From Bacillota bacterium (GTDB taxonomy: Bacteria; Bacillota; Clostridia; Ch29), in assembly GCA_013540605.1 (NCBI GenBank), contig JABVCK010000004.1, forward strand, positions 62,001 through 126,000: a stretch of 64,000 nucleotides of DNA. The letters are read 5' to 3'. The notes beneath the pieces were generated by a model that made no database searches, was not told the origin of the DNA, and was given only the letters and a program-made list of their open reading frames with translations. Below, one piece after another: positions 14,244 to 61,201 of this stretch (the stretch's first letter is position 1; every line of letters starts with the position of its first letter). The translations under genes were made by a program, and so were the position numbers.

Positions 14244-14998
14244 CTTGCCGACCGCTCCTCAATTGCTCTCTGCAGGCTGTCCAATACCTGCCCGGCCTTG
14301 TCCCGTATAATTATCTCGGCGAGGCCGTCATAGGGGGTAACTCCAATGTTAACGATCATGAGCCTCCGGCACAATGACGCCAGGTTATTGACCGGCCCTA
14401 CATTAAGGCTCGAACCGATGACCAGAAGCAGGTCGCATCTCTTGACAAGATCCCACGCTTCATTGAAACAGTCGGGCAGCATATCCCCGAAGAGGACGAC
14501 CCCTGGCCTCAGTATGCCTCCGCACTCTTCGCATACCGGGGGTATCTGGCCGCTGCCGACCTTATCGGCAAGCAGCCGTATGCTTACCCTCTTCCCGCAT
14601 TTGATACAATAACCCGTTCGCGTATCTCCATGAACCTCCAGCACTTTTTCGGAACCCGCCCTGTGATGGAGGTTGTCTATGTTTTGTGTTATCACCGCAT
14701 CAATAAGCCCTTCCTTTTCAAACCGGGCCAGAACATGATGCGCCCTGTTGGGGCGGGCATCCTGCATGGACATGATTATTTCAAACCCCGTACTATAAAA
14801 TTTCCTGGGGTTATTGTATAGGACCGCGGTTGACAGCGCTTCCATAGGGTCAACCCTTTCCCAGATCCCGGTGCCGGGGCTTCTGAAATCGGGAATCCCG
14901 CTCTCGGTTGATATGCCCGCTCCGGTCAGCACACATACGCTGCCGCTCTCCATGATTGCCTCTGCAACCCTTCTTATTGCTTGATCCTGCATATCCAT
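14240..14998 (-). CDS. cobB: NAD-dependent protein deacylase, Sir2 family
   Basis: 252-aa sirtuin that removes acyl groups from lysines with NAD. Visible are GAGISTESGIPDFR (NAD-binding), TQNIDNLHHRAG with the catalytic His, a four-Cys zinc site (CIKCGKR and CEECGG), and LLVIGSSLNVGP. The first in-frame start is GTG at 15001, but the ATG at 14998 has the better GAGGTG spacing. It is downstream of the spore protein gene and coupled to the methyltransferase. Confidence 0.93.
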   Translation of the reverse strand: MDMQDQAIRRVAEAIMESGSVCVLTGAGISTESGIPDFRSPGTGIWERVDPMEALSTAVLYNNPRKFYSTGFEIIMSMQDARPNRAHHVLARFEKEGLIDAVITQNIDNLHHRAGSEKVLEVHGDTRTGYCIKCGKRVSIRLLADKVGSGQIPPVCEECGGILRPGVVLFGDMLPDCFNEAWDLVKRCDLLLVIGSSLNVGPVNNLASLCRRLMIVNIGVTPYDGLAEIIIRDKAGQVLDSLQRAIEERSAR

Positions 14999-15017
14999 CA
15001 CCTCACCTCACGCAGAA

Positions 15018-15036
15018 AGGGGACGCACCGTCCCCT
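15018..15036. repeat. GGGGACG hairpin at the end of the spore protein gene
   Basis: AGGGGACG-CAC-CGTCCCCT, a perfect 8-bp stem with a 3-base loop, overlapping the last bases of the spore protein gene. On the minus strand it is followed by TTTC, so it may serve as a weak terminator. It belongs to the GGGGAC hairpin family. Confidence 0.7.
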
Positions 15037-15256
15037 ATCCTTCCAAAGTATTGCCGGATTGTGTTACCACCTTGCCGGCCTTCTTCCTGGTAGTAATAAT
15101 GCCGCCTATTCTCCCCGTCTCCGCAGCGGTGAGAGAGCCCCAACCGGATTTTCTCACCCTTTCGGCAAGGCCAAGCTCCTTCGCTATCTCATATTTCATC
15201 CTGTCCTCTGGGGTTTCAACCTTTTTCTTTTTATTCTTCTTTTTAGAAGCTGACAT
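15035..15256 (-). CDS. Alpha/beta-type small acid-soluble spore protein (SspF-like)
   Basis: 73-aa DNA-protecting protein of spores. The family core is seen as MKYEIAKELGLAERV, then GWGSLTAAETGRIGG, most similar in layout to the SspF/minor alpha-beta group. The N-terminus is unusually lysine-rich (ASKKKNKKKKVE). The second ATG (15256) is chosen because GGAGG lies 7 bp upstream; the first ATG at 15262 is too close. The gene marks the host as a spore former and is probably read by a forespore sigma factor, which I did not try to place. Confidence 0.85.
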   Translation of the reverse strand: MSASKKKNKKKKVETPEDRMKYEIAKELGLAERVRKSGWGSLTAAETGRIGGIITTRKKAGKVVTQSGNTLEG

Positions 15257-15317
15257 CGGCATACCTCCTTCAACTTCTATTATGCTGTAATCTAGGCCGA
15301 TTTATGTAAGGGGCCAA

Positions 15318-16244
15318 TTACAGGCCGTATATGATAACGTATAATTCCCTTATGACCATTACAGCAAAAATCAGCATGGTCACTGCCAGGGGAACCATTT
15401 CCTTTATCGTCATGCCATTGGCTCTTTCCTCCCTATCCGGCACGGAGATGCCGCTTTGTTCTGAAAGTCTCCTGAAAAGCCTGACCATAACGGTCGCAGA
15501 TAGGACCGCTATTATGCCCCAGAACAGAGTACCGCTTAGAATAACAGCGGTATTCAGGCCTTCCTCAGCTGCCTGTCCGGTTTCCCCTGCATACAGCTGC
15601 GCTCCGTAGGCTATTATCACCGACAGGGCATTATTGATGAAATGTCCCGTAATGGCCGGAAAAATCGACCCGGTTTTTGTTGCCATATAGCCGAAAATGA
15701 TGCCCAGGAATACCGGTCCGATTAAATTCTGTATGTTAAAATGAAATATGCCGAAGAGCAAAGCCGTAATCAGAACAGCCCTTTTTTCACCAAACGCCTC
15801 GTATCCCTTCAAAACCAGCCCCCTAAAGAACAGTTCTTCCGCCACACCTGCGGTTAGGGCAATAATAAGCAGGTTTACGGCAAGTTCGCTGAAATTCTCA
15901 GCCACGGGAACCGGCATAGGTATCAATTCACCGAACAGGCTCAGCACAAGATTGCCTACCAGGTTAAGAAACAGACCCACAGGGTAGGCAAAAAAGGTAA
16001 TCAGGGCGCAGAGTCCGACAATCTTCAGACTTGTTTTCTTGATTCTAAATACTTCTCTTAAGCTGGCTTTTCTGAACAGAACAAATAAAAACGCCGGTCC
16101 CAGGATTATTACCAGCTCTGTTAGAACAAGACCCGTATAAATATCCGTCATCTGCAGCGTATACCCTATAGTAACCAGCAATATCGCCGTAATCATATAT
16201 ACGATATTCACACCAAGCAGTGTTATTCCCGAATTCTCTTCCAA
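15318..16244 (-). CDS. CPBP family intramembrane metalloprotease
   Basis: 308-aa membrane protein with about eight hydrophobic segments. The family motifs are intact: EELFFRG (EExxxR type, residues ~138-145), FGIFHFNIQN (FxxxH) and HFINNAL (HxxxN/B). These are Rce1-like proteases; substrates in bacteria are mostly unknown. TTG start at 16244 with AGGAGG upstream; no better ATG was found. It stands alone between the spore protein gene and the MarR fragment. Confidence 0.85.
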   Translation of the reverse strand: MEENSGITLLGVNIVYMITAILLVTIGYTLQMTDIYTGLVLTELVIILGPAFLFVLFRKASLREVFRIKKTSLKIVGLCALITFFAYPVGLFLNLVGNLVLSLFGELIPMPVPVAENFSELAVNLLIIALTAGVAEELFFRGLVLKGYEAFGEKRAVLITALLFGIFHFNIQNLIGPVFLGIIFGYMATKTGSIFPAITGHFINNALSVIIAYGAQLYAGETGQAAEEGLNTAVILSGTLFWGIIAVLSATVMVRLFRRLSEQSGISVPDREERANGMTIKEMVPLAVTMLIFAVMVIRELYVIIYGL

Positions 16245-27212: not shown

Positions 27213-27432
27213 AAATACCGCCTCCGTTTCACTCTATGAAATTATATATCACCTAGTGTAATTATTATATCTATTCTAGATAAAATTTAAGAATCCTCCC
27301 ATAAATATTTTTTTTATAAAATAACAGACAGGATTTTGAACTGCTACTGACTAACACCTAGCACCTGCCATTTGGCCTCAAAATCATTGACAAAAGAAAA
27401 ATATAGTGTTATCATTAAACAAAATTAATACC

Positions 27433-27609
27433 CGAATGATAGAGGCGCATTTTTCATCAGTACGCAAACGGAGAATAATAGGATTCGTTGAAGCTTGCCG
27501 AAAGGGAACGATGCCGAAGGTGTTTTCTGCCCTATTCAGAAGGCTCCTGGGTATGCAGTTAACAGCTGCATAACTGTCACCTGGAAACGGGTGGAGCGCT
27601 ATCGCATTA
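27433..27609 (+). ncRNA. Lysine riboswitch (L box)
   Basis: Conserved L-box blocks in order: GATAGAGGCGC (27439-27449), AGTACGCAAACGGAG (from 27470), GGGAACGATGCCGAAGGTG (about 27505-27523), and CTGTCACCTGGAAACGGGTG followed by GAGCGCTATC, which closes the P1 helix with the 5' part. It lies about 195 bp before asd and is followed by a terminator, so lysine would stop transcription of the lysine operon. Confidence 0.95.
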
Positions 27610-52738: not shown

Positions 52739-53764
52739 TTATATACTGTAAGTATCAAACATTTTATTAATTATTTCTACTGCGTTTGTAAAAGATCTGT
52801 GAATAGAAAGATTAGATGTTAAAATGACTCCATTAGCTCTTTTCTTTGCAAGATAATTAAGATCTACAATATCTGCCCTACTAGGGATACTCCTCGTAGT
52901 TAACGATTGCAAAACATCTGTTGCAATAATTACCTTCACTTGTTCTTTGCAACATAGTTCTGATATAAAATCAATCGTATCGGTTAAATGAATATAATCA
53001 GTAAGTAATCCTAAATCTCCTCTTCCGATTATTATTTCTGTACAACTCTTTAAGATAGAGGAAAGGCCTTTAACAGATTTGGGTGTCTCAATTTTAGGTA
53101 TCAAGTGAAAATCATAGATGTTATGTTCATTTATTTCTTTCTTTATTATTTGAACTTGTTGATGATTTTCAACTAAAGACAGACAAATATTTTTTATATT
53201 GTAATTTCTTATAAGTCCACAGATAGCATTAAACATGCTTTTATTTGAGTTTTCCTGATACGCATGTTGTGAAAAGATTACAGATCTAGGACCTCTTAAT
53301 TCAGATGAATTTAAGGCTCTTGCTGTTAAAGTATTATGATTGGTTTGAATGACAGTCAATAATAATTCCCCATCACCAATAATAATTGTACTATTATTTT
53401 TTATTGACGCTAGCGGCAAATTTGCATCAACAATAAAAGTATGTCGGTCATTTGTATCATACTCTGTTGTGAGTATTATTATATCGTTTTCTTTTATATA
53501 TTGCGCCTGCGTATGGTCTTGATAAATTCTATTTTTGTAGCAAGGATAAGGTATATCCAGCAATATATTAGGAATAGAATGTATGGCAGTATAATATGTT
53601 TCATATAGTTTACTAAAAAAATCATGATAATCATGGATATCATTATTAACCAAGTTAAATCTAATTCGATTAATATGTAGTGTTGCGTAATTTTTCACTA
53701 TTTCATAGCAATTATCAAAATTCTTAAAATACCTTAAGGTCGGTATAATTTCAACATTAGACAT
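52739..53764 (-). CDS. Pyruvate kinase-like protein without the C-terminal domain
   Basis: 341 aa, against about 470 or more for true pyruvate kinase. Pyruvate kinase features: RFNLVNNDIHDYHDFF (like the RLNFSHG region), a B-domain-like part with GDGELLLTVI and GPRSVIF, PKIETPKSVKGLSSIL (catalytic Lys and metal Glu), GRGDLG (metal Asp), and IATDVLQSL...SRADIVDL. The C-terminal regulatory domain is absent. It follows the radical SAM gene by 53 bp in an AT-rich cluster, so a special role, perhaps phosphoenolpyruvate- or pyruvate-based peptide modification, is possible (speculative). Confidence 0.78.
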   Translation of the reverse strand: MSNVEIIPTLRYFKNFDNCYEIVKNYATLHINRIRFNLVNNDIHDYHDFFSKLYETYYTAIHSIPNILLDIPYPCYKNRIYQDHTQAQYIKENDIIILTTEYDTNDRHTFIVDANLPLASIKNNSTIIIGDGELLLTVIQTNHNTLTARALNSSELRGPRSVIFSQHAYQENSNKSMFNAICGLIRNYNIKNICLSLVENHQQVQIIKKEINEHNIYDFHLIPKIETPKSVKGLSSILKSCTEIIIGRGDLGLLTDYIHLTDTIDFISELCCKEQVKVIIATDVLQSLTTRSIPSRADIVDLNYLAKKRANGVILTSNLSIHRSFTNAVEIINKMFDTYSI

Positions 53765-53817
53765 ATATTCCTTCCTTCCATTTCACATTATAAAGAATAA
53801 ACTCGGTGTTAAACTTC

Positions 53818-54863
53818 TTATGGTTTGAAAGAGAAGCATAAGGGTACAATATTCTCATTTTGAATATATTTCATTCGATGTGTACATGGTGTATCAATAT
53901 TCAATTTATGATCATATGCCTCATTTGTAAAACCTTCCTCCCATTTAATTTCATTATTATGGTATTTAGCTATACAGTACTGAGAACCAATCATAGCTGA
54001 ACAGATTTGTATTAGTCCATCAGGGTGTACCAAAACTCTTTCTCCCAGCTTAACTGGACAAAATCCATAGTAAGACTTGTTACTGTTAAAAGTATCCAGG
54101 TCAACAAATTGGAGAGGTATTCTAATTTCCATTTTATATTGAACACGATCTAATTCTGCTCTAATTTGCTGCAAAATATTTTCCCAGTCATTATACTCAA
54201 TTAATACGGATTCGGTCCAAGCATCCATAGGTATTCCATGTTTTAATAAGACATGGAAATTTAAGCTCTTGACACCAAGGTTTTCACAATATTTCATCAT
54301 ATCAACTATATTATACTTTTCCCTGTGTTTAACATAAAAATTGTGTACGCATGAAGTAATAGATACATAAAACCCGGCTTTTAATGCTGCGATAATATTC
54401 CTTATTGTAACGTCAAATGATCCATGAGATCTTAGATAATCATTTGTTTCTTGATTATATCCATCCAGACTAAAATTCAATTTGCATAATTCTTTTAATT
54501 TTTCGTAACTAAGTAATATCTCATCAAAGAAACCGTTAGTATCTATCCTAATTTCTGTATAACCAATATTATGAAGCTCCTCAACTAACGTCAACAGATA
54601 CCTATAGTCTGATTGATAATATAGTGTAGGCTCTCCACCGAGTAAGGTTATTTTCCGGGCTCCTAGGTAGTAGAAATCTTGTGAGAGTTTAATGGCCTCA
54701 TTCAAATCAATCTCCTGTCTCTTCGTTTTAAATGTTAGGTTTGTTTTATAATAGCAATGCTTACATCTTAACTGACAATTGTTCGTAATATATAAAAATA
54801 CTTGTTTTAACCTATTGTAAAAAAACTTATAAATCTGTCATCAATTATATAGTTATATTTCAA
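53818..54863 (-). CDS. Radical SAM enzyme with a -1 frameshift near its start
   Basis: About 348 aa if the shift is made. The CxxxCxxC motif CQLRCKHCYY is at 54751-54780, upstream of the first normal start in that frame (TTG at 54705). That frame is open only from a stop near 54840 and has no good start. The preceding frame starts at TTG 54863 with GGGAGG 8 bp away and runs into T7 (54819-54825); slipping -1 there joins MKYNYIIDDRFISFF to YNRLKQVFLYITNN and the motif. GGEPTL follows, and later Cys (FCPVKLG, ICSAMIGSQYC) suggest a SPASM/Twitch-like auxiliary cluster. It probably modifies a peptide; it lies in a PqqD/ABC cluster. Confidence 0.82.
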
Positions 54864-54966
54864 TATATTTACCTCCCTTAACCCGGACAAAGTAAAACAA
54901 CTGTATCCTTGCTGCATACTTTAATTTTCCTTGTTTTAAACTTTGATACTTAATAGTAAAATCCTG

Positions 54967-55053
54967 CTATAAAATTCCACAAAATTCAGATAAATATCGA
55001 CAAAGCTGAGGTTCAGCTATATCCAGGTACTTATCCTGGTAGTATTCGGACAT
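54967..55053 (-). CDS. Possible small protein of 28 residues
   Basis: Short frame MSEYYQDKYLDIAEPQLCRY plus SEFC-containing end, two Cys. It lies between the CYTH terminator and the radical SAM gene, where a precursor peptide could lie. The ribosome site is poor (AGGA about 17 bp away), and it could be a remnant of another gene. Low confidence. Confidence 0.2.
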   Translation of the reverse strand: MSEYYQDKYLDIAEPQLCRYLSEFCGIL

Positions 55054-55133
55054 AATAATAATGTGGTTATCCTAACAAATGTGCCAAAAATTCTTGACAC
55101 TACCATTAATATTTCAGACTCATGCAAAAGGCA

Positions 55134-55162
55134 GAAAAAAACATACTCGGTTTTGTCCGAGT
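55134..55162 (-). terminator. Terminator after the CYTH gene
   Basis: Minus-strand ACTCGG-ACAAAA-CCGAGT, then ATG and TTTTTTT. It divides the peptide cluster into two transcripts, unless read through. Confidence 0.8.
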
Positions 55163-55184
55163 AAAGCGAGAAAACTTCAAGATA

Positions 55185-55808
55185 TTATTGTTTATCTTTT
55201 TCATATCGTATAATCTCAATAAATCTTTTATATTTACTCTTATTATTGATCTTCCATCTAATGCCTATAGAATAAAGTTCTTCCATCAAACCCTTTAAAT
55301 GTTCAGGACGAATTCCCTCGATTTCTAATTCATATGTTACTAGCCCATTTGGAAATGTTGTTTTATCGAGTTCAAATATATATCCATAAATACCTTGTAA
55401 ATAATGCCTGCTATTTTGAATACTACCCAATAAAATCAATTCGTCATTTTCTTCACAAAAAGTATTGAAAATATTATAGGCTTCACTAGAAAGAAAATCC
55501 AATATTTTTTTTGGTTTATATAGAATTTGCATAAAGTCATTTTCATTTATCATAACATTATATTCAGCAGATTTATTAACCAAATCGTTGTAAGTATTTT
55601 CCTTTACTTTCATGCACAGTAGATATGATGTACACTCCTTTCGAATTCGCAGTGTAACATTGTATTTTTCCAAAGTATAATAAGAACTATCAAAATAATA
55701 ATTTATTTGTTCAACTGGATCTCTAATGGAGGAAAAGTCATTTCTGATTTTTTCATAATATTGACTTTCAATTAATAACTTTAGCTCATTCTCCTTGATA
55801 GCTTCCAT
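55185..55808 (-). CDS. CYTH-domain protein
   Basis: 207 aa. CYTH/triphosphate-tunnel features: N-terminal ENELKLLI (ExExK-like), TLRIRKECTSYLLCMKVKEN, and ELEIEG later. The family binds inorganic or organic triphosphates (thiamine triphosphatase, class IV adenylate cyclase). ATG at 55808 with GGAGG 8 bp upstream. It is 29 bp after the ABC permease gene in the same direction. A role in a peptide cluster is unexpected and unknown. Confidence 0.72.
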   Translation of the reverse strand: MEAIKENELKLLIESQYYEKIRNDFSSIRDPVEQINYYFDSSYYTLEKYNVTLRIRKECTSYLLCMKVKENTYNDLVNKSAEYNVMINENDFMQILYKPKKILDFLSSEAYNIFNTFCEENDELILLGSIQNSRHYLQGIYGYIFELDKTTFPNGLVTYELEIEGIRPEHLKGLMEELYSIGIRWKINNKSKYKRFIEIIRYEKDKQ

Positions 55809-55837
55809 CTTAAAATCCTCCAATTGTTTTCTTCAAT

Positions 55838-56647
55838 TTAGTAAAAAACAAAGTTTCCATTCTTACGAGCATTTTTCTCAGCCTTTTTTAGTAACCACAA
55901 TGTTAGGGATACTATAAGCAATAGGCTTATTAACAATTTGTAGATACCTTGTAAACTTGCTGATAAGCTACCTTCTATTAATAGTGGACGAACAATCATT
56001 AAAGCATAGGTCAAAGGGAACAACGCAGAGATAATTTTAGCCCAAATAGGAAATACAAATGTTGGCATTCTTACTCCAGAAAATAAAATCATTGGTTCAT
56101 CAAAAACTGCCATTAAGAAGCTGGCATCACGCGAGAAGAGAAAAATAACATTCATTAACCCTCCCCATACCGCTGCAGAGACTATCAAGACTATGAAGGA
56201 AATAGGTATATAAATTAAACTCTCTACCGGAATCCTACGTATCCATACAGTTACAAATACACAAAAAACCGAAAACATCCAAATGTTTTCAATTAATGCT
56301 CCAAACGCCCGACCATATATTATTGCAATTCGATTAGCAGGGGTTAAAAAAATAGTTTCCAGAGTGCCGTTGATTCTTTCATGTCCCATATAGAAAGCAC
56401 TCTGAAGTAAAGACTTGAATGATATATATCCTAAGAATCCGGTTATCAAAAACATTATGATATCTTCTTGTGAAGCAAAAGTATTCCAAGGACCCTGAGA
56501 TAGATTAAATGGTTTGTAACTATAATAAGCGTTAAAGAATACTACTATTGGCCAAATTAACAAAGTAAAATATACCCCATAAGAATGAAACGAATTACGA
56601 TGTTGCTTTATAACTTCTGCTCTCACAATTTGAAATATTTCTTTCAA
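55838..56647 (-). CDS. ABC transporter permease (ABC-2 type), second
   Basis: 269 aa, six hydrophobic segments. ABC-2 features: GHERINGTLETIFLTPANRI region and MRMPTF-like exit (SGVRMPTFVFPIWAKIISAL). The start is taken at TTG 56647, 6 bp after GGAGGGG; the ATG at 56662 lies inside that site. It overlaps the ATPase gene by 53 bp, so the two are tightly coupled. Confidence 0.82.
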   Translation of the reverse strand: MKEIFQIVRAEVIKQHRNSFHSYGVYFTLLIWPIVVFFNAYYSYKPFNLSQGPWNTFASQEDIIMFLITGFLGYISFKSLLQSAFYMGHERINGTLETIFLTPANRIAIIYGRAFGALIENIWMFSVFCVFVTVWIRRIPVESLIYIPISFIVLIVSAAVWGGLMNVIFLFSRDASFLMAVFDEPMILFSGVRMPTFVFPIWAKIISALFPLTYALMIVRPLLIEGSLSASLQGIYKLLISLLLIVSLTLWLLKKAEKNARKNGNFVFY

Positions 56648-57632
56648 TACTATCCCCTCCATACGATAATTGAATAAGTGCATCTTCTAAACGCGGTTCG
56701 ATTATTTTAAGGTGCAGAATAGGTAGTCCGTTACTAGTTAAAATATGTGCAAGTTGTCCAGTAAGATTTTCTTGAGCACTTATACTAACAGAAACATCAG
56801 TAGTATTTTCTTGAAATTCAATTTTAGCTTGATGGACTTTCGCTATTTCATATATCTCCTTTTTTACACCACTTGTTAGTTCAGGTATTGATACTAAAAT
56901 ATTAGTATTCATTTTCGTGGAATAGGCTAGCTCACTTGGAGTTCCGGTTGCAATAATACAGCCTTTATCTATTACATATATCCAATCACAAAGCTCTTCT
57001 GCTTCTGTTATATAATGTGTTGTTAATAGTATTCCTTTATTCCTTTTTTCAGCCAAATGACGCACATGATTCCTTAATTCTTTTGCAATGGCTACATCTA
57101 AACCCAGCGTTGGTTCATCAAGAAATAAAAATTTTGGATCGTTTACAAGTCCACGCGCTATCTGCAGACGTTGCTTCATACCCTTTGAATAACGCTCTAC
57201 TGGCATATCGGCTGCTTCCTTTAAATCGACTAATTCCAGTAACTCATCAATAGAATCGTTTAATTTGTGTCTAGGCAAATTATAAAGGGAAGCGAAATAC
57301 TCCAGGTTTTCCCGTGCCGTCAAACGCCAATATATATTACGTTCTCCGCCGGTAATAACATTGACAATCCTCTTAATTTCCTGAGGATAGCGTATGCCGT
57401 CAATACCATTAATCGAAAATGAACCGGATGTCGGTTCCAAGAGAGCAGACAACATTTTTATTGTTGTCGTTTTCCCGGCACCATTTATACCAAGAAGTCC
57501 TATGATTTGACCAGGTTTTATTTCTAAGCTAACATCATTAACAGCCATAATTTCTTTCAATGTCTTTGGTCCAAACAAACCTTTTCGCTCTTTAAGCTGG
57601 TAAACTTTACATAAATTATTTGCGATTAGCAT
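56595..57632 (-). CDS. ABC transporter ATP-binding protein
   Basis: 345 aa. Walker A GINGAGKTTTIKML, Q-loop region, signature YSKGMKQRLQIARGL, Walker B FLFLDEPTLGLD, and H-loop THYITEAEELCD. Residues after ~240 form an extension found in drug/peptide-type ABC-2 exporters. ATG at 57632 with AAGGGGGG. With two permeases it probably exports the product of the cluster and may confer immunity (inference). Confidence 0.93.
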   Translation of the reverse strand: MLIANNLCKVYQLKERKGLFGPKTLKEIMAVNDVSLEIKPGQIIGLLGINGAGKTTTIKMLSALLEPTSGSFSINGIDGIRYPQEIKRIVNVITGGERNIYWRLTARENLEYFASLYNLPRHKLNDSIDELLELVDLKEAADMPVERYSKGMKQRLQIARGLVNDPKFLFLDEPTLGLDVAIAKELRNHVRHLAEKRNKGILLTTHYITEAEELCDWIYVIDKGCIIATGTPSELAYSTKMNTNILVSIPELTSGVKKEIYEIAKVHQAKIEFQENTTDVSVSISAQENLTGQLAHILTSNGLPILHLKIIEPRLEDALIQLSYGGDSIERNISNCESRSYKATS

Positions 57633-57645
57633 AATACAGCCCCCC

Positions 57646-58455
57646 TTATCCGAAAGTTTTCTCAATCAATTGTTTCTCTACCCTAGAAAGCCACCAAAAG
57701 CCGAACAATAAGTACATTAAGCTTAAAGCTACTAACTTTATTATTAGGATCCAGTGGTGCCAAAGTAAGTCTCCAAAAATAACTACTTTGCGAAATAGTT
57801 CCAGTACATGAGTTAGCGGCAATACATGTGAAATTACTTGTAACCATGTAGGTAAATACTGAATTGGATAAGATATTCCACAGACAAGACTTACTATTAT
57901 AAATAAAGTATTCTGCGTTATATAAGTATCGCGAGTTCGCAACATAACTGTAGCAAGTGAAACCCCCATTGAAAAAAAGCTGAAAATAGAGAGAATTAAT
58001 ACAATTATTAGTTGCTCAATTTTGATATTCAGCAACTTAGCTCCCAATAACCATCCTACTATTAACACAACAAAGAATTCTAGAAAAGACCGTCCTACTT
58101 GTTCAATTAAATTGCCAAGAAAATACCCTTTCCTCGAACAGGGAGACAATAATAATGCTTCTAAAGTTCCTTCTCTTAACTCATTCATTAAAGAACGTCC
58201 AACATTCATTAAAGTAGATACTGCAAATGTGTAAAGAGACACTCCAAGAATAGTATAGGTTATATAATCAGAACTTCCAGTATAAGTTTCAAATCGGCTA
58301 TCCAAATATCCTCTAAACATATAATGATAAATAAAATATGAAAACAAAACTGTATATAATCCTATAACAATCCTTTGAACTATAAAGGACCATGGGAAAA
58401 CACGTTTTGCAATGTAATAGTTACGTTTTGCAGTTGCTAGCATTGTAGTTAGCAT
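57646..58455 (-). CDS. ABC transporter permease (ABC-2 type), first
   Basis: 269 aa, six hydrophobic segments; ELREGTLEALLLSPCSRKGY is the typical ABC-2 motif, followed by ISYPIQYLPTWLQVISHVLP. AAAGGAGG lies before the ATG at 58455. It overlaps the CPBP gene by 35 bp and precedes the ATPase gene by 13 bp. Confidence 0.85.
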   Translation of the reverse strand: MLTTMLATAKRNYYIAKRVFPWSFIVQRIVIGLYTVLFSYFIYHYMFRGYLDSRFETYTGSSDYITYTILGVSLYTFAVSTLMNVGRSLMNELREGTLEALLLSPCSRKGYFLGNLIEQVGRSFLEFFVVLIVGWLLGAKLLNIKIEQLIIVLILSIFSFFSMGVSLATVMLRTRDTYITQNTLFIIVSLVCGISYPIQYLPTWLQVISHVLPLTHVLELFRKVVIFGDLLWHHWILIIKLVALSLMYLLFGFWWLSRVEKQLIEKTFG

Positions 58456-59182
58456 GCTGATTTTCCTCCTTTACCCTCTTACTCATCCGAAATCTAGCAA
58501 AAGATGTATAAGCAATTGGAATATTATAAGTAAGATGTATCAAGATTGGTATTAGCACGGAGCCACTATACACAAAAAGAAGTCCTGCGCTGAGGCTGAG
58601 CATAAACTGTTTGAAAAAGTCACGCGGACGGAATCTCTGTTGTGCTGCAAAATGTAATATATGTTCCGCTACGAATAAAAACGCTGAAATTAAAAGCGCT
58701 GGAGCTACTCCGATTAGCGGTAATAAAGATAAAATCACAAAAGCTTTGTAGAATAACTCTTGTAATATTGCAGAAGCAATATTACTATATGCGTCTAAAG
58801 ATGCACTCCGTAAAGTAATAGTAGGAAATAAAGTCATTAGTTCTTGATTATAGAAAGGACGAAGTTCTTTAATAAGCGGAATCAAAAAACATATACTTAC
58901 AATAATGGCAAATAATAATGATATTGGCATATGCTTAGTAACAGGAACATCTGGAGTGAATAGCAAAAATGCTAATAAATATGGAATAAAATAAACAGTT
59001 CTGCGTAACCAATCAGCACCGTTAAATAATTTATCATGGATTTTTCTCGCTTTTCTGATGACTAATAATTCAAGATGTACAATCAAGAATAACACTATAG
59101 TCCCTTTAGATGGAAAAAATATAGCAAGTGAAATAATTATAAACTCCATTAAGGTAAAAACTATCCATTGCTGTTTACTCAT
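58421..59182 (-). CDS. CPBP-like membrane protein with altered catalytic motif
   Basis: 253 aa, about seven hydrophobic segments. The CPBP layout is present, but motif 1 reads LQELFYKAF where active enzymes have EExxxR; motif 2 FLFVAEHILHF and motif 3 LIHLTYNI remain. It may be inactive or act differently. CPBP proteins in peptide clusters can serve in maturation or self-protection. ATG at 59182 behind GAGGTG; it starts 5 bp after the PqqD-like stop. The frame is open to 59212. Confidence 0.75.
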   Translation of the reverse strand: MSKQQWIVFTLMEFIIISLAIFFPSKGTIVLFLIVHLELLVIRKARKIHDKLFNGADWLRRTVYFIPYLLAFLLFTPDVPVTKHMPISLLFAIIVSICFLIPLIKELRPFYNQELMTLFPTITLRSASLDAYSNIASAILQELFYKAFVILSLLPLIGVAPALLISAFLFVAEHILHFAAQQRFRPRDFFKQFMLSLSAGLLFVYSGSVLIPILIHLTYNIPIAYTSFARFRMSKRVKEENQHANYNASNCKT

Positions 59183-59186
59183 TTCG

Positions 59187-59438
59187 TTACACCTCGACAA
59201 GTTCGTTTTCAAGCAATTCTTTCATAAATTGTTGAATATCTTTTAATACCATTGCTTTATCAACATTGTATTTTTCTGCTATTTTATCAGCTATTTGCTC
59301 TATTGATGTTTTACCATCAATGGAATCCCAAACCAATTCGCCTACTTCATCAAGTTGAAATGCTTTATAGTTTTTAGCTATATATTTTATGCCATTAACA
59401 ACACGGTATTGTACAAATACATCGCGTCTCGGTATCAT
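59187..59438 (-). CDS. PqqD-like peptide-binding protein
   Basis: 83 aa, winged-helix RiPP recognition element. YRVVNGIKYIAKNYKAFQLD, then GELVWDSIDGKTSIEQIADK and a last helix with LLENELVEV match the PqqD family. PqqD-type proteins bind a precursor peptide and bring it to a radical SAM enzyme. GAAGGAG lies before the ATG at 59438. This gene is the best single sign that the cluster makes a modified peptide. Confidence 0.85.
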   Translation of the reverse strand: MIPRRDVFVQYRVVNGIKYIAKNYKAFQLDEVGELVWDSIDGKTSIEQIADKIAEKYNVDKAMVLKDIQQFMKELLENELVEV

Positions 59439-59506
59439 AAAATCAACTCCTTCACTAAAATATGGTATAATTAAATATATCTTTGCCTTTAAGGATATAG
59501 ATTCAA

Positions 59507-59702
59507 TTGTGTCTTCTCTACACAATTTGTTTACGAAATAAGTTAAATCCTGAAGAATATGCAACCTTTAGAAATTAGTGATATTTGCTGTTATGCATTA
59601 TCCATTGCAGCAGGAAGCTTAACAACGATTAATTTAGGAGCTTTATACACGAACCCCACCCCCTTTATAACAAATTTATTTTTTAGGGTAGAGAAGACAC
59701 AA
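59507..59702. repeat. 15-bp inverted repeats around the small peptide frame
   Basis: TTGTGTCTTCTCTAC (59507-59521) and its exact complement GTAGAGAAGACACAA (59688-59702), separated by 166 bp. The 19-residue frame is between them. They could be paired protein sites or the stem of a large RNA loop. The left copy also continues as TTGTGT...ACACAA, a small palindrome. Confidence 0.8.
59591..59650 (-). CDS. Candidate small peptide (possible precursor)
   Basis: GTG start at 59650 with a strong AAAGGGGGTGGGG upstream; 19 residues: MYKAPKLIVVKLPAAMDNA, then TAA. It lies 150 bp before the PqqD-like gene and inside 15-bp inverted repeats. A short Lys/Pro peptide could be a modified product or signal, but it is very short for a leader plus core, so it may instead be a leader peptide. 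Unproven. Confidence 0.4.
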   Translation of the reverse strand: MYKAPKLIVVKLPAAMDNA

Positions 59703-59712
59703 ACATTAATGG

Positions 59713-60540
59713 TCAACTTACCTGCTTTTTCTTGAGAATAGTCTGTACTTGAACATTAAGATCTTGACAAAACCACAGAGCCTCTTTGGTATATCGTTCC
59801 ACCGTTGTTTCATCAAACGGACGGGTTTGGAAATCTAGATACTTACTAAGTAGAATTTTATCGCCTGTTTTCTCCTGATAACGAATTATCTTACGATATA
59901 GCCACTTGGAACTCGGATTTGTCTCCCCATAAGCAGCTAAATAAGATGTCACCATTGTATCTATCAGCATTCGTGCCATGAAGAAAGCTGAACCTAGGTC
60001 TTTGGAAAGTAATGCGCCTTGTACGTCCTCAACCATACCTGCGTAAAACTCTGATTTGATAACAATCTGATAGAAACCTAGGTTATTGAATTGAATAGAT
60101 TTATAAATTTCTTCAAACTTTTCTTTGTTTATTACCGGTCTACCAAATTTTAAACGATGTAAAAAATCAAATTCAGTTTCAGATAGGCGTTGGATATAAT
60201 GCTCCGTCTTAAAATCTAACCCATTCAGTTTAGCTATCATTTGATTAAATTCATTCCAACTCCAATATTCAAAATCATATCGAATTCCATCGTGTCTAAT
60301 GTTACGTACAATAGCTTGTTGAGTTGATAAGATTAATTCCTCGGAAGAAGGGTCTCCTCGAAACCGGTCAGTACTAATATCCTTACAAATTACATATACA
60401 TCAATATCGGAAGTTTCGTTTCCAAACCCCTCCATTAGCGATCCCGCTATGTAGACTAGTGAGGTATCTAGATCTATTCCTTTCAAATGTTGCAAAATAA
60501 GATGTGGATGATTTTCAATATTTCGTTTATCAAGCACCAT
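59713..60540 (-). CDS. Nucleotidyltransferase-domain protein
   Basis: 275 aa. Pol-beta-type nucleotidyltransferase motif: AGSLMEGFGNETSDIDVYVI (residues ~32-51; GS...SDID metal ligands). The rest is helical. ATG at 60540 (MVLDKRN) with AAAGGAGAGG upstream; the frame is open to 60561, overlapping the GGDEF-RHH stop. Relatives are aminoglycoside and minimal nucleotidyltransferases; the substrate is unknown. Its place just before the small peptide suggests it belongs to the cluster. Confidence 0.75.
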   Translation of the reverse strand: MVLDKRNIENHPHLILQHLKGIDLDTSLVYIAGSLMEGFGNETSDIDVYVICKDISTDRFRGDPSSEELILSTQQAIVRNIRHDGIRYDFEYWSWNEFNQMIAKLNGLDFKTEHYIQRLSETEFDFLHRLKFGRPVINKEKFEEIYKSIQFNNLGFYQIVIKSEFYAGMVEDVQGALLSKDLGSAFFMARMLIDTMVTSYLAAYGETNPSSKWLYRKIIRYQEKTGDKILLSKYLDFQTRPFDETTVERYTKEALWFCQDLNVQVQTILKKKQVS

Positions 60541-60557
60541 CAATAATCCCTCTCCTT

Positions 60558-61121
60558 TCACACGTTATATTTTTTTAAAAACAATTCCAAGCTCTCTCTT
60601 AATATTTCTGCTTCACTCTTACTGAGATATCTAGCCAAACTACGTAATCTTTCCAACTGACTTGGACTATAGTAGTTGGAACGTAAAACCATTTTCTCTT
60701 CTGCGATACAAGCTCTATTGCGTCCACATCGCTTTGCTTTATTCAGTACTTCTTCAGCCTTACGCCACAATTCAGCTGCATCACGCCCGTCCCATGGATA
60801 TTGAGCTATCCCTGCGCTACAAGTTAATCCGTCTGTTTTAAAAAATCCAGCAAACTTCTTCAAAAGTTCATCAGTAAAATCTTTAGCTTGCTTCTTATTT
60901 ATCCCAGGCATGATTAAAAGAAATTCATCCCGTTCCGCCCAAAACAGTTGAACTTTATTGCTGTTAATTTGCTCATTCAAAAACTCCCTAACTTCATGTG
61001 CTAATCGAGTTTTATCTTCTTGAGAATAAGTATTGAAACGGTCAAGATCGAAAAATACTATTGAAAATAAATCATTTTCATGAGTCGCTATGAAATATTC
61101 TAAGTTATCAAAAGCATTCAT
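60558..61121 (-). CDS. Degenerate GGDEF domain fused to a ribbon-helix-helix-like end
   Basis: 187 aa. Residues ~1-140 have the GGDEF fold (VFFDLDRFNTYSQEDKTRLA, SAGIAQYPWDGRDAAELWRK, ALNKAKRCGRN-like), but the signature is AERDEF, so cyclase activity is doubtful. Residues ~148-187 (SPSQLERLRSLARYLSKSEA, then ILRESLELFLKKYNV) look like an RHH DNA-binding unit. A 44-bp perfect palindrome lies 37 bp upstream, the likely operator. It could be a nucleotide-sensing repressor of the cluster (inference). First gene of the AT-rich group. Confidence 0.68.
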   Translation of the reverse strand: MNAFDNLEYFIATHENDLFSIVFFDLDRFNTYSQEDKTRLAHEVREFLNEQINSNKVQLFWAERDEFLLIMPGINKKQAKDFTDELLKKFAGFFKTDGLTCSAGIAQYPWDGRDAAELWRKAEEVLNKAKRCGRNRACIAEEKMVLRSNYYSPSQLERLRSLARYLSKSEAEILRESLELFLKKYNV

Positions 61122-61157
61122 TAGCTACATTCCTTTCATGTATGGATTATATAATAA

Positions 61158-61201
61158 TACACCGATGTATATATATGTTAACATATATATACATCGGTGT
61201 A
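61158..61201. promoter_or_regulatory. 44-bp perfect palindrome upstream of the GGDEF-RHH gene
   Basis: Arms of 22 bp (61158-61179 and 61180-61201), each reading TACACCGATGTATATATATG and TT, meeting without a spacer. Likely operator for the RHH end of the adjacent protein. Confidence 0.8.

Follow-up and report, generated by a model that had tools for sequence, protein, structure and literature searches.

What is made by a gene cluster that brings together a PqqD-like protein, a nucleotidyltransferase (NTase) and an exporter? The question is raised by an island at positions 52739–61201 of a 64,000-nucleotide stretch of a Bacillota genome (contig JABVCK010000004.1; hereafter the window), whose ten named proteins are all encoded on the minus strand, from 52739 to 61121. 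An earlier note, made from the sequence alone, had listed these genes, read them as a pathway for a ribosomally synthesized and post-translationally modified peptide (RiPP) and paired PqqD with a radical S-adenosylmethionine (SAM) enzyme. Every gene that it named is present, with family matches in Pfam, and its RiPP logic is backed by a precursor peptide gene and a PqqD-type RiPP recognition element (RRE); however, the constant partners of PqqD are the NTase and a tiny peptide, not the radical SAM enzyme. The centre of the cluster, a 19-codon gene at 59591–59650, had been missed. On balance we favour the reading that the cluster directs RRE-guided nucleotidylation of this tiny, ribosomally made peptide, in which the nucleotide payload can be exchanged and a function like that of microcin C is reached by different enzymes.

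A tiny peptide conserved with the NTase and PqqD

The three genes at the centre of the cluster are:
59713–60540, minus strand: NTase of 275 residues, ANT(4')/kanamycin-nucleotidyltransferase-like, the core enzyme (alignments, AlphaFold2, Foldseek, VIA-align)
59591–59650, minus strand: precursor peptide gene, VYKAPKLIVVKLPAAMDNA (GTG start, ribosome-binding site AAAGGGGGTGG, conserved in related clusters)
59187–59438, minus strand: stand-alone PqqD-like RRE of 83 residues (Pfam PqqD, 3e-15)

The precursor gene thus sits between the NTase (60540–59713) and PqqD (59438–59187). Related clusters (loci carry L numbers below) were located through the NTase, not through the peptide. A plasmid search with the NTase led to Parageobacillus and actinobacterial loci, a scan of 84,980 genomes with NTase alignment A3 (A2 being too divergent) gave 20 loci, and Paenibacillaceae genomes added further ones. 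Clusters with both an NTase and a stand-alone PqqD number 21 and span Bacillus, Paenibacillus, Brevibacillus, Streptococcus and actinobacteria. All 21 encode peptides of 18–25 residues with an N-terminal Y-x-x-P, one to three per cluster, in reading frames preceded by a ribosome-binding site, e.g. MYKAPKLVAVKGVAGMINA (Brevibacillus, L029), MYKKPKLVKVKLPTALVNV (Bacillus xiamenensis, L026), MAKKKYQTPKVSELKSAAGINVKA (Streptococcus mitis, L035) and MRKYTKPTAKTISQGTVLRDNA (Streptomyces, L017). The same rule finds no peptide in the 15 NTase loci without a stand-alone PqqD (Fisher test, 1.8e-10), no match in 170 kb of more distant flank, and about two matches per set of shuffles. Because the search pattern was fixed only after several peptides had been seen, the PqqD-less loci and the outer flanks are the fairest control.

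Related copies of the peptide genes diverge mainly at third codon positions: four synonymous codons and no replacement codon distinguish the two copies in L028, and the peptide genes of L024 and L056 differ by 7, 3 and 12 bases at codon positions 1, 2 and 3, respectively. The pattern fits peptides that are translated and selected, since they are conserved with NTase and PqqD, have ribosome-binding sites and show this third-position bias. The gene tables of L011, L017, L018 and L021 list no precursor gene; genes of 18–25 codons are so short that gene finders likely skip them.

Most of the peptides have three parts: the Y-x-x-P element (Y-x-x-P-K-L in most Bacillales peptides), a middle stretch that often contains V-K, and two small residues in a row (AA, AG, PG, TA, GT or GA) followed by a variable tail of 4–8 residues (MDNA, MINA, MQNA, LVNV, MELA, NLPN, LTHEA, VLRDNA), which is probably the core of the product. 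The C-terminal residue varies as well (A, V, N, R, Y, L, Q, G, D).

Could this be a lasso peptide cluster in disguise? The Y-x-x-P motif belongs to the W/Y/LxxP type that has been reported for PqqD-like RREs (PMC12710340). Lasso systems, pseudomycoidin among them, resemble the window in the Y-x-x-P-x-L leader and the stand-alone PqqD-like RRE (the NCBIfam model nearest to the window protein is lasso_PqqD_Bac, 1.7e-11, below its cut-off), and a nucleotidyltransferase gene is present in some lasso clusters (PMC8498205). However, the window proteins include no asparagine-synthetase-type cyclase and no B2 protease (Pfam), the reason for which lasso identity was rejected, the peptides stop where a lasso core would start, and none has a core long enough to fold. 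Eight peptides from related clusters (21–24 residues) all stayed below the NCBIfam cut-offs, and against the lasso precursor models only that of L011 scored at all, with a sub-threshold match to lasso_cyano (18 of 33 bits). We therefore consider the lasso explanation extremely improbable. The pseudomycoidin enzyme itself acts on a phosphorylated lasso.

The conserved core module

The core operon continues downstream of PqqD with:
58421–59182, minus strand: CPBP (Rce1-like) membrane protein (Pfam Rce1/CPBP, 8e-11; alignment)
57646–58455, minus strand: ABC-2 permease 1 of the exporter (Pfam ABC2_membrane; syntenic in L022, L023, L025, L028 and L029)
56595–57632, minus strand: ABC ATPase of the exporter (Pfam ABC_tran, 2.4e-29; synteny)
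55838–56650, minus strand: ABC-2 permease 2 of the exporter (Pfam ABC2_membrane; synteny)
55185–55808, minus strand: CYTH/triphosphate tunnel enzyme (Pfam CYTH, 8e-11; syntenic homologues in L022 and L028)

The commonest order in Bacillales is NTase–peptide–PqqD–CPBP–ABC permease–ATPase–ABC permease, with the peptide gene placed after PqqD in some relatives and MFS transporters in place of the ABC exporter in some other clusters. L022 and L028 have CYTH at the corresponding position, and a gene for a GGDEF domain joined to a ribbon-helix-helix (RHH) domain lies ahead in L028, as in the window. What is conserved is a module of NTase–peptide–PqqD–CPBP–exporter, to which CYTH and GGDEF-RHH are added in some clusters. 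The CYTH protein keeps ExExK and the R/K/E tunnel residues, and its relatives in the PDB are an adenylate cyclase and an inorganic triphosphatase.

The nucleotidyltransferase

For the NTase, Pfam and NCBIfam offer weak generic matches (NTP_transf/Polbeta, 0.001–0.015) at the GS...SDID motif but no dedicated model. In an alignment of 17 NTase sequences, G33, S34, G38, S44, D45, D47 and D89 are invariant. The AlphaFold2 model has a mean predicted local distance difference test score of 90; alignments and model agree on a palm domain with GS..DxD followed by a C-terminal helical bundle. Its best whole-length structural matches are the ANT(4') kanamycin nucleotidyltransferases (Z 11.8, root-mean-square deviation 5.0 over 232 residues), with LinB next (Z 10.6). 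Enzymes of the ANT(4')/LinB type use a nucleoside triphosphate (NTP) to place a nucleoside monophosphate (NMP) on a hydroxyl group of a small-molecule substrate. The likeness extends over the whole fold, polymerase-beta palm plus helical bundle, but identity to the window NTase is only ∼10% and the genomic context differs, being peptide and RRE rather than resistance; the modelled ANT fold is by itself no proof of the reaction.

The actinobacterial NTases of L016, L034 and L041 have a C-terminal extension resembling PqqD; the comparison (hhalign E 8.5e-4, probability 24%) is no more than suggestive of an NTase–PqqD fusion.

Variable genes in the related clusters

Outside the core the clusters differ but have a theme in common, in that most of the exchangeable genes encode nucleotide enzymes; 16 of the 21 have a nucleotide-phosphorylating type of enzyme near the NTase. 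A thymidylate-kinase fold is found in 11 (L020, L021, L023–L027, L056–L058 and L062) and nucleoside diphosphate kinase (NDK) in three (L018, L022 and L061), while a protein like pyruvate phosphate dikinase (PPDK) is found in L035 and one like pyruvate kinase (PK) in the window. By chance ∼0.2 thymidylate-kinase or NDK genes would be expected in the sequence covered, a figure that is an estimate and not a computed control.

Other payload genes include those for AICARFT, a phosphoribosyltransferase and a nucleoside phosphorylase (L024), a GMP-synthase-like amidotransferase with a B12 radical SAM protein (L025) and a NUDIX protein (L026). Bacillus (L026), Paenibacillus (L062) and Pseudomonas (L030) have one set of payload genes in common, whose distribution suggests that the set is transferred as a whole. 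A full cluster is present in the human oral commensal Streptococcus mitis SK564 (L035, 2176-11084), with the PPDK-like gene, NUDIX and an HhH-GPD glycosylase; the last could provide self-protection against an incorporated base analogue.

Loci without a stand-alone PqqD also have such genes. For example, a Paenibacillaceae locus (L059, 12623-15515) encodes FolE, QueD, QueE and an NDK-domain protein, a possible route to a 7-deazapurine payload. In another example, an Exiguobacterium plasmid (L012) encodes a deoxynucleoside kinase and a protein annotated as an S66 peptidase (14348-15382); MccF, the immunity peptidase of microcin C, belongs to the S66 family. The same plasmid locus has an extra alanine-tRNA ligase gene. 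On Nocardia and Kitasatospora plasmids (L006, 7708-12147; L007, 8156-12771) a conserved NTase–radical SAM–radical SAM set lies beside an extra gltX, an arrangement that suggests a product inhibiting glutamyl-tRNA synthetase, with the extra gltX as the resistant copy; this NTase shares only the core motif with that of the window.

Radical SAM and PK-like genes beyond the core operon

Four features lie past the CYTH gene or at its end:
55144–55163, minus strand: intrinsic terminator closing the core operon after CYTH (sequence scan)
55076–55100, minus strand: end of an IS256-type insertion sequence (IS) remnant (matches the end of an IS256-type element in the same genome; unique in the window)
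53818–54863, minus strand: radical SAM enzyme in the payload position (Pfam Radical_SAM, 1.1e-21; distant relatives only)
52739–53764, minus strand: short PK-like protein in the payload position (Pfam PK, 1.3e-22; phmmer to PKs in the PDB, 5.8e-14)

The terminator and the IS256 end both separate CYTH from the radical SAM–PK pair, so the pair is outside the core operon and the island is not one operon. The gene combination of the earlier note is not confined to this genome: NTase, PqqD, CPBP, ABC exporter, CYTH and GGDEF-RHH recur together elsewhere, but the radical SAM and PK-like genes, as such, were not found in the related clusters. The radical SAM protein with CxxxCxxC that the note described has the Pfam family match, but the motif falls outside the reading frame that begins at the first usual in-frame start (54705). 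Upstream of 54705 the frame that holds CxxxCxxC has no usual start codon, and a TTG at 54863, preceded by the ribosome-binding site GGGAGGT, is in a different frame; only a −1 shift at seven T (54825–54819) joins the two (LKYNYIIDDRFISFF/YNRLKQVFLYITNNCQLRCKHC). Provided that this shift is read, the protein has CxxxCxxC plus C-terminal cysteines. Mutation, an error in the assembly or slippage may account for the frame break. Elsewhere in the genome there is an IS256-type element with a near-identical end (L065, 1500-1531), in which the transposase frame seems to be interrupted.

No close relative of the radical SAM protein was found in 390 other genomes of the class, 388 of the phylum or viral contigs, and core clusters L022-L029 have no homologue of it. 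For the PK-like protein no close relative was found in viral contigs or in 379 genomes of the class of the L022 host (a search without a positive control). It consists of barrel and B domain, the regulatory C domain being absent, and keeps the catalytic Lys, Glu, Asp and Thr (IPKIE, GRGDLG and ATDVL in comparison with four PKs; phosphoenolpyruvate/Mg residues), with Ser replaced by Val and Thr by Ile at the presumed K+ sites; we take the lost Ser and Thr to be K+ ligands. Since pyruvate kinases can phosphorylate several nucleoside diphosphates (NDPs), the protein could, by analogy, serve in the role of an NDK. L022 has radical SAM plus NDK where the window has radical SAM plus PK-like.

Are the two genes part of the pathway at all? 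The cluster may be degenerate, an IS256 insertion and deletion after transfer having removed the payload and left an intact core with the radical SAM and PK-like genes as unrelated remnants. The IS256 end and the apparently non-coding stretch between CYTH and radical SAM would be explained in this way, as would the apparent frameshift and the failure to find the pair elsewhere in the genomes searched. However, the PK-like gene is an intact frame of 341 codons with its catalytic residues kept, the pair has the same low G+C as the core, and L022 has radical SAM and kinase-type genes in the same position. We regard degeneration as rather unlikely, though a serious alternative.

A different role for the radical SAM enzyme would be to act directly on the 19-residue peptide, following the logic of YydFGHIJ, PQQ and sactipeptides, with NTase and PK-like protein as accessories. 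Its C-terminal Cys pattern with a PDG motif is like that of SPASM/twitch enzymes, WgkB and ScmF are among its NCBIfam matches, and a 29% identical relative adjoins a PqqD-like gene. On the other hand, the homologous core clusters found all do without this enzyme, which argues that it is not needed for the peptide; its gene is in a transcription unit of its own past terminator and IS scar, the reading frame is doubtful, and the peptide has no Cys for thioethers. We consider direct action quite improbable.

Proposed mechanism

From gene content, peptide conservation, synteny, co-occurrence and the NTase fold, all observed, we infer the following chemistry. PqqD would bind the lasso-like Y-x-x-P-x-L leader of the 19-residue peptide and present it to the ANT-fold NTase, which would attach to it the NMP of an NTP that is probably modified. 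Cleavage after the conserved small-residue pair would leave a core of 4–8 residues, here about MDNA, to be exported by the ABC-2 exporter, with CPBP and CYTH serving in processing or self-protection. Genes outside the core would supply an interchangeable payload: in the window the radical SAM enzyme would modify a nucleotide and the PK-like protein recharge NDP to NTP, the counterparts of the latter in relatives being thymidylate-kinase-fold enzymes, NDK and the PPDK-like protein. The product would be a peptide–nucleotide conjugate with microcin C-like action that may enter other cells as a peptide.

We also propose, tentatively, that this is a widespread, as yet undescribed RiPP class in which an RRE-guided ANT-like enzyme joins a nucleotide antimetabolite to a peptide of 18–25 residues, with exchangeable payload; the local form of the proposal, in which an unusual nucleotide is produced by the radical SAM enzyme and then converted to its triphosphate by a pyruvate kinase reduced to barrel and B domain, is put forward just as tentatively. 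No description of NTase, PqqD and tiny peptide together was found in open-access full text (subscription papers and bioRxiv lay outside this scope).

Several observations weigh against peptide nucleotidylation. Pseudomonas and Paracidovorax loci carry the NTase without a stand-alone PqqD or peptide, so the enzyme may act on a small molecule. Five of the 21 clusters have no kinase of the kinds listed above, and the peptides have no conserved hydroxyl or terminal residue that would mark an acceptor. In the alignment, CPBP of the window and of its nearest relatives has Gln for the first Glu of EExxxR, and for this reason may not be an active protease. The radical SAM frame is possibly broken, both payload genes lie past the terminator and IS scar, and L067 has a relative of the radical SAM enzyme beside PqqD and no NTase.

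The Pseudomonas and Paracidovorax loci make a scaffold role the strongest rival mechanism: a small molecule (amino acid, aminosugar or modified nucleoside) would be built on or joined to the peptide and then released, as in PEARL-scaffold pathways and PQQ, with the NTase just capping or activating an intermediate. Aminoglycoside nucleotidyltransferases cap or activate small molecules, and the folds closest to the NTase act on such substrates. The payload genes vary and include non-nucleotide enzymes, e.g. AsnB in actinobacterial loci, myo-inositol-1-phosphate synthase, MAT and an aminotransferase in L011, and PALP and an aminotransferase in L024/L056; Pseudomonas has the NTase and shared payload genes with no peptide. 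But kinases that would make NTPs recur in 16 of the 21 clusters, no ligase that could load a payload of this sort is encoded in the window, and the C-terminal residues of the peptides are not uniform. We judge the scaffold role unlikely and continue to prefer nucleotidylation of the peptide.

Comparison with known systems

Microcin C is made from a precursor, a ThiF-like nucleotidyltransferase (MccB) and an exporter, with optional nucleotide-decorating genes, and its precursor MccA ends in Asn (PMC9239234). The window shares the minimal logic of precursor, nucleotidyltransferase and exporter and the very short peptides, but its transferase has the polymerase-beta/ANT fold, a PqqD RRE is present, the leader is of the Y-x-x-P type and a terminal Asn is not conserved; the ThiF family has no match among its ten proteins (Pfam, NCBIfam). 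Because transferase fold, RRE and leader differ, the cluster is microcin C-like in function at most and not a member of that family. YydFGHIJ, PQQ and mycofactocin systems share a PqqD-type RRE, an exporter and a nearby radical SAM enzyme, but the window module conserves the NTase, not the radical SAM.

Prokaryotic viperins with their nucleotide kinase and the PADLOC candidate PDC-M51 resemble the window in the idea of a radical SAM enzyme and a thymidylate-kinase-like enzyme yielding a modified NTP. Kinases of the clusters match PDC-M51B (9e-20) and VakA (1e-9), and the window radical SAM protein matches pVip at 2.3e-13; a MoaA-type protein of the same genome, however, does so at 5.5e-19. Control radical SAM proteins of this genome score as high, so the match was rejected as evidence for a viperin-like payload and we make no viperin claim.

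If the proposal is true, the cluster represents a second, unrelated route to 'Trojan horse' compounds of the peptide–nucleotide kind, one that extends across Firmicutes and actinobacteria and includes plasmids and a human oral commensal. A different nucleotide antimetabolite would then be indicated by each cluster, in many cases together with the gene for self-protection, a direct route for genome mining because the core stays fixed while the payload genes change.

Probable acquisition and regulation of the island

The island has 32.4% G+C in a setting of 45.6% on either side, the AT-rich character that the earlier note had described. Its suggestion of transfer is supported as well: given that the G+C differs, that 390 other genomes of the host's class lack the NTase and that the window NTase nests within a Bacillales group (tree support 0.93), a horizontally acquired cluster is the supported reading. 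None of the five relatives compared has the SNF2 gene that flanks the island.

At the upstream end of the island are:
60558–61121, minus strand: GGDEF-RHH regulator gene (Pfam GGDEF, 1e-11, and RHH_3, 0.0017; aligned with the L028 homologue, RHH end included)
61158–61201, no strand: perfect palindrome of 44 nucleotides directly upstream of the GGDEF-RHH gene (repeat search)

The GGDEF domain is degenerate (ERDEF) and fused to the RHH DNA-binding domain, a union that is unusual in itself; the protein is probably a nucleotide-responsive regulator and may be a repressor. The palindrome is a candidate operator for the RHH domain, and L028 has a similar TATATATA-GG-TATATATA repeat ahead of its GGDEF-RHH gene. 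Elsewhere in the window, a lysine riboswitch (120 bits) is found at 27432-27609.

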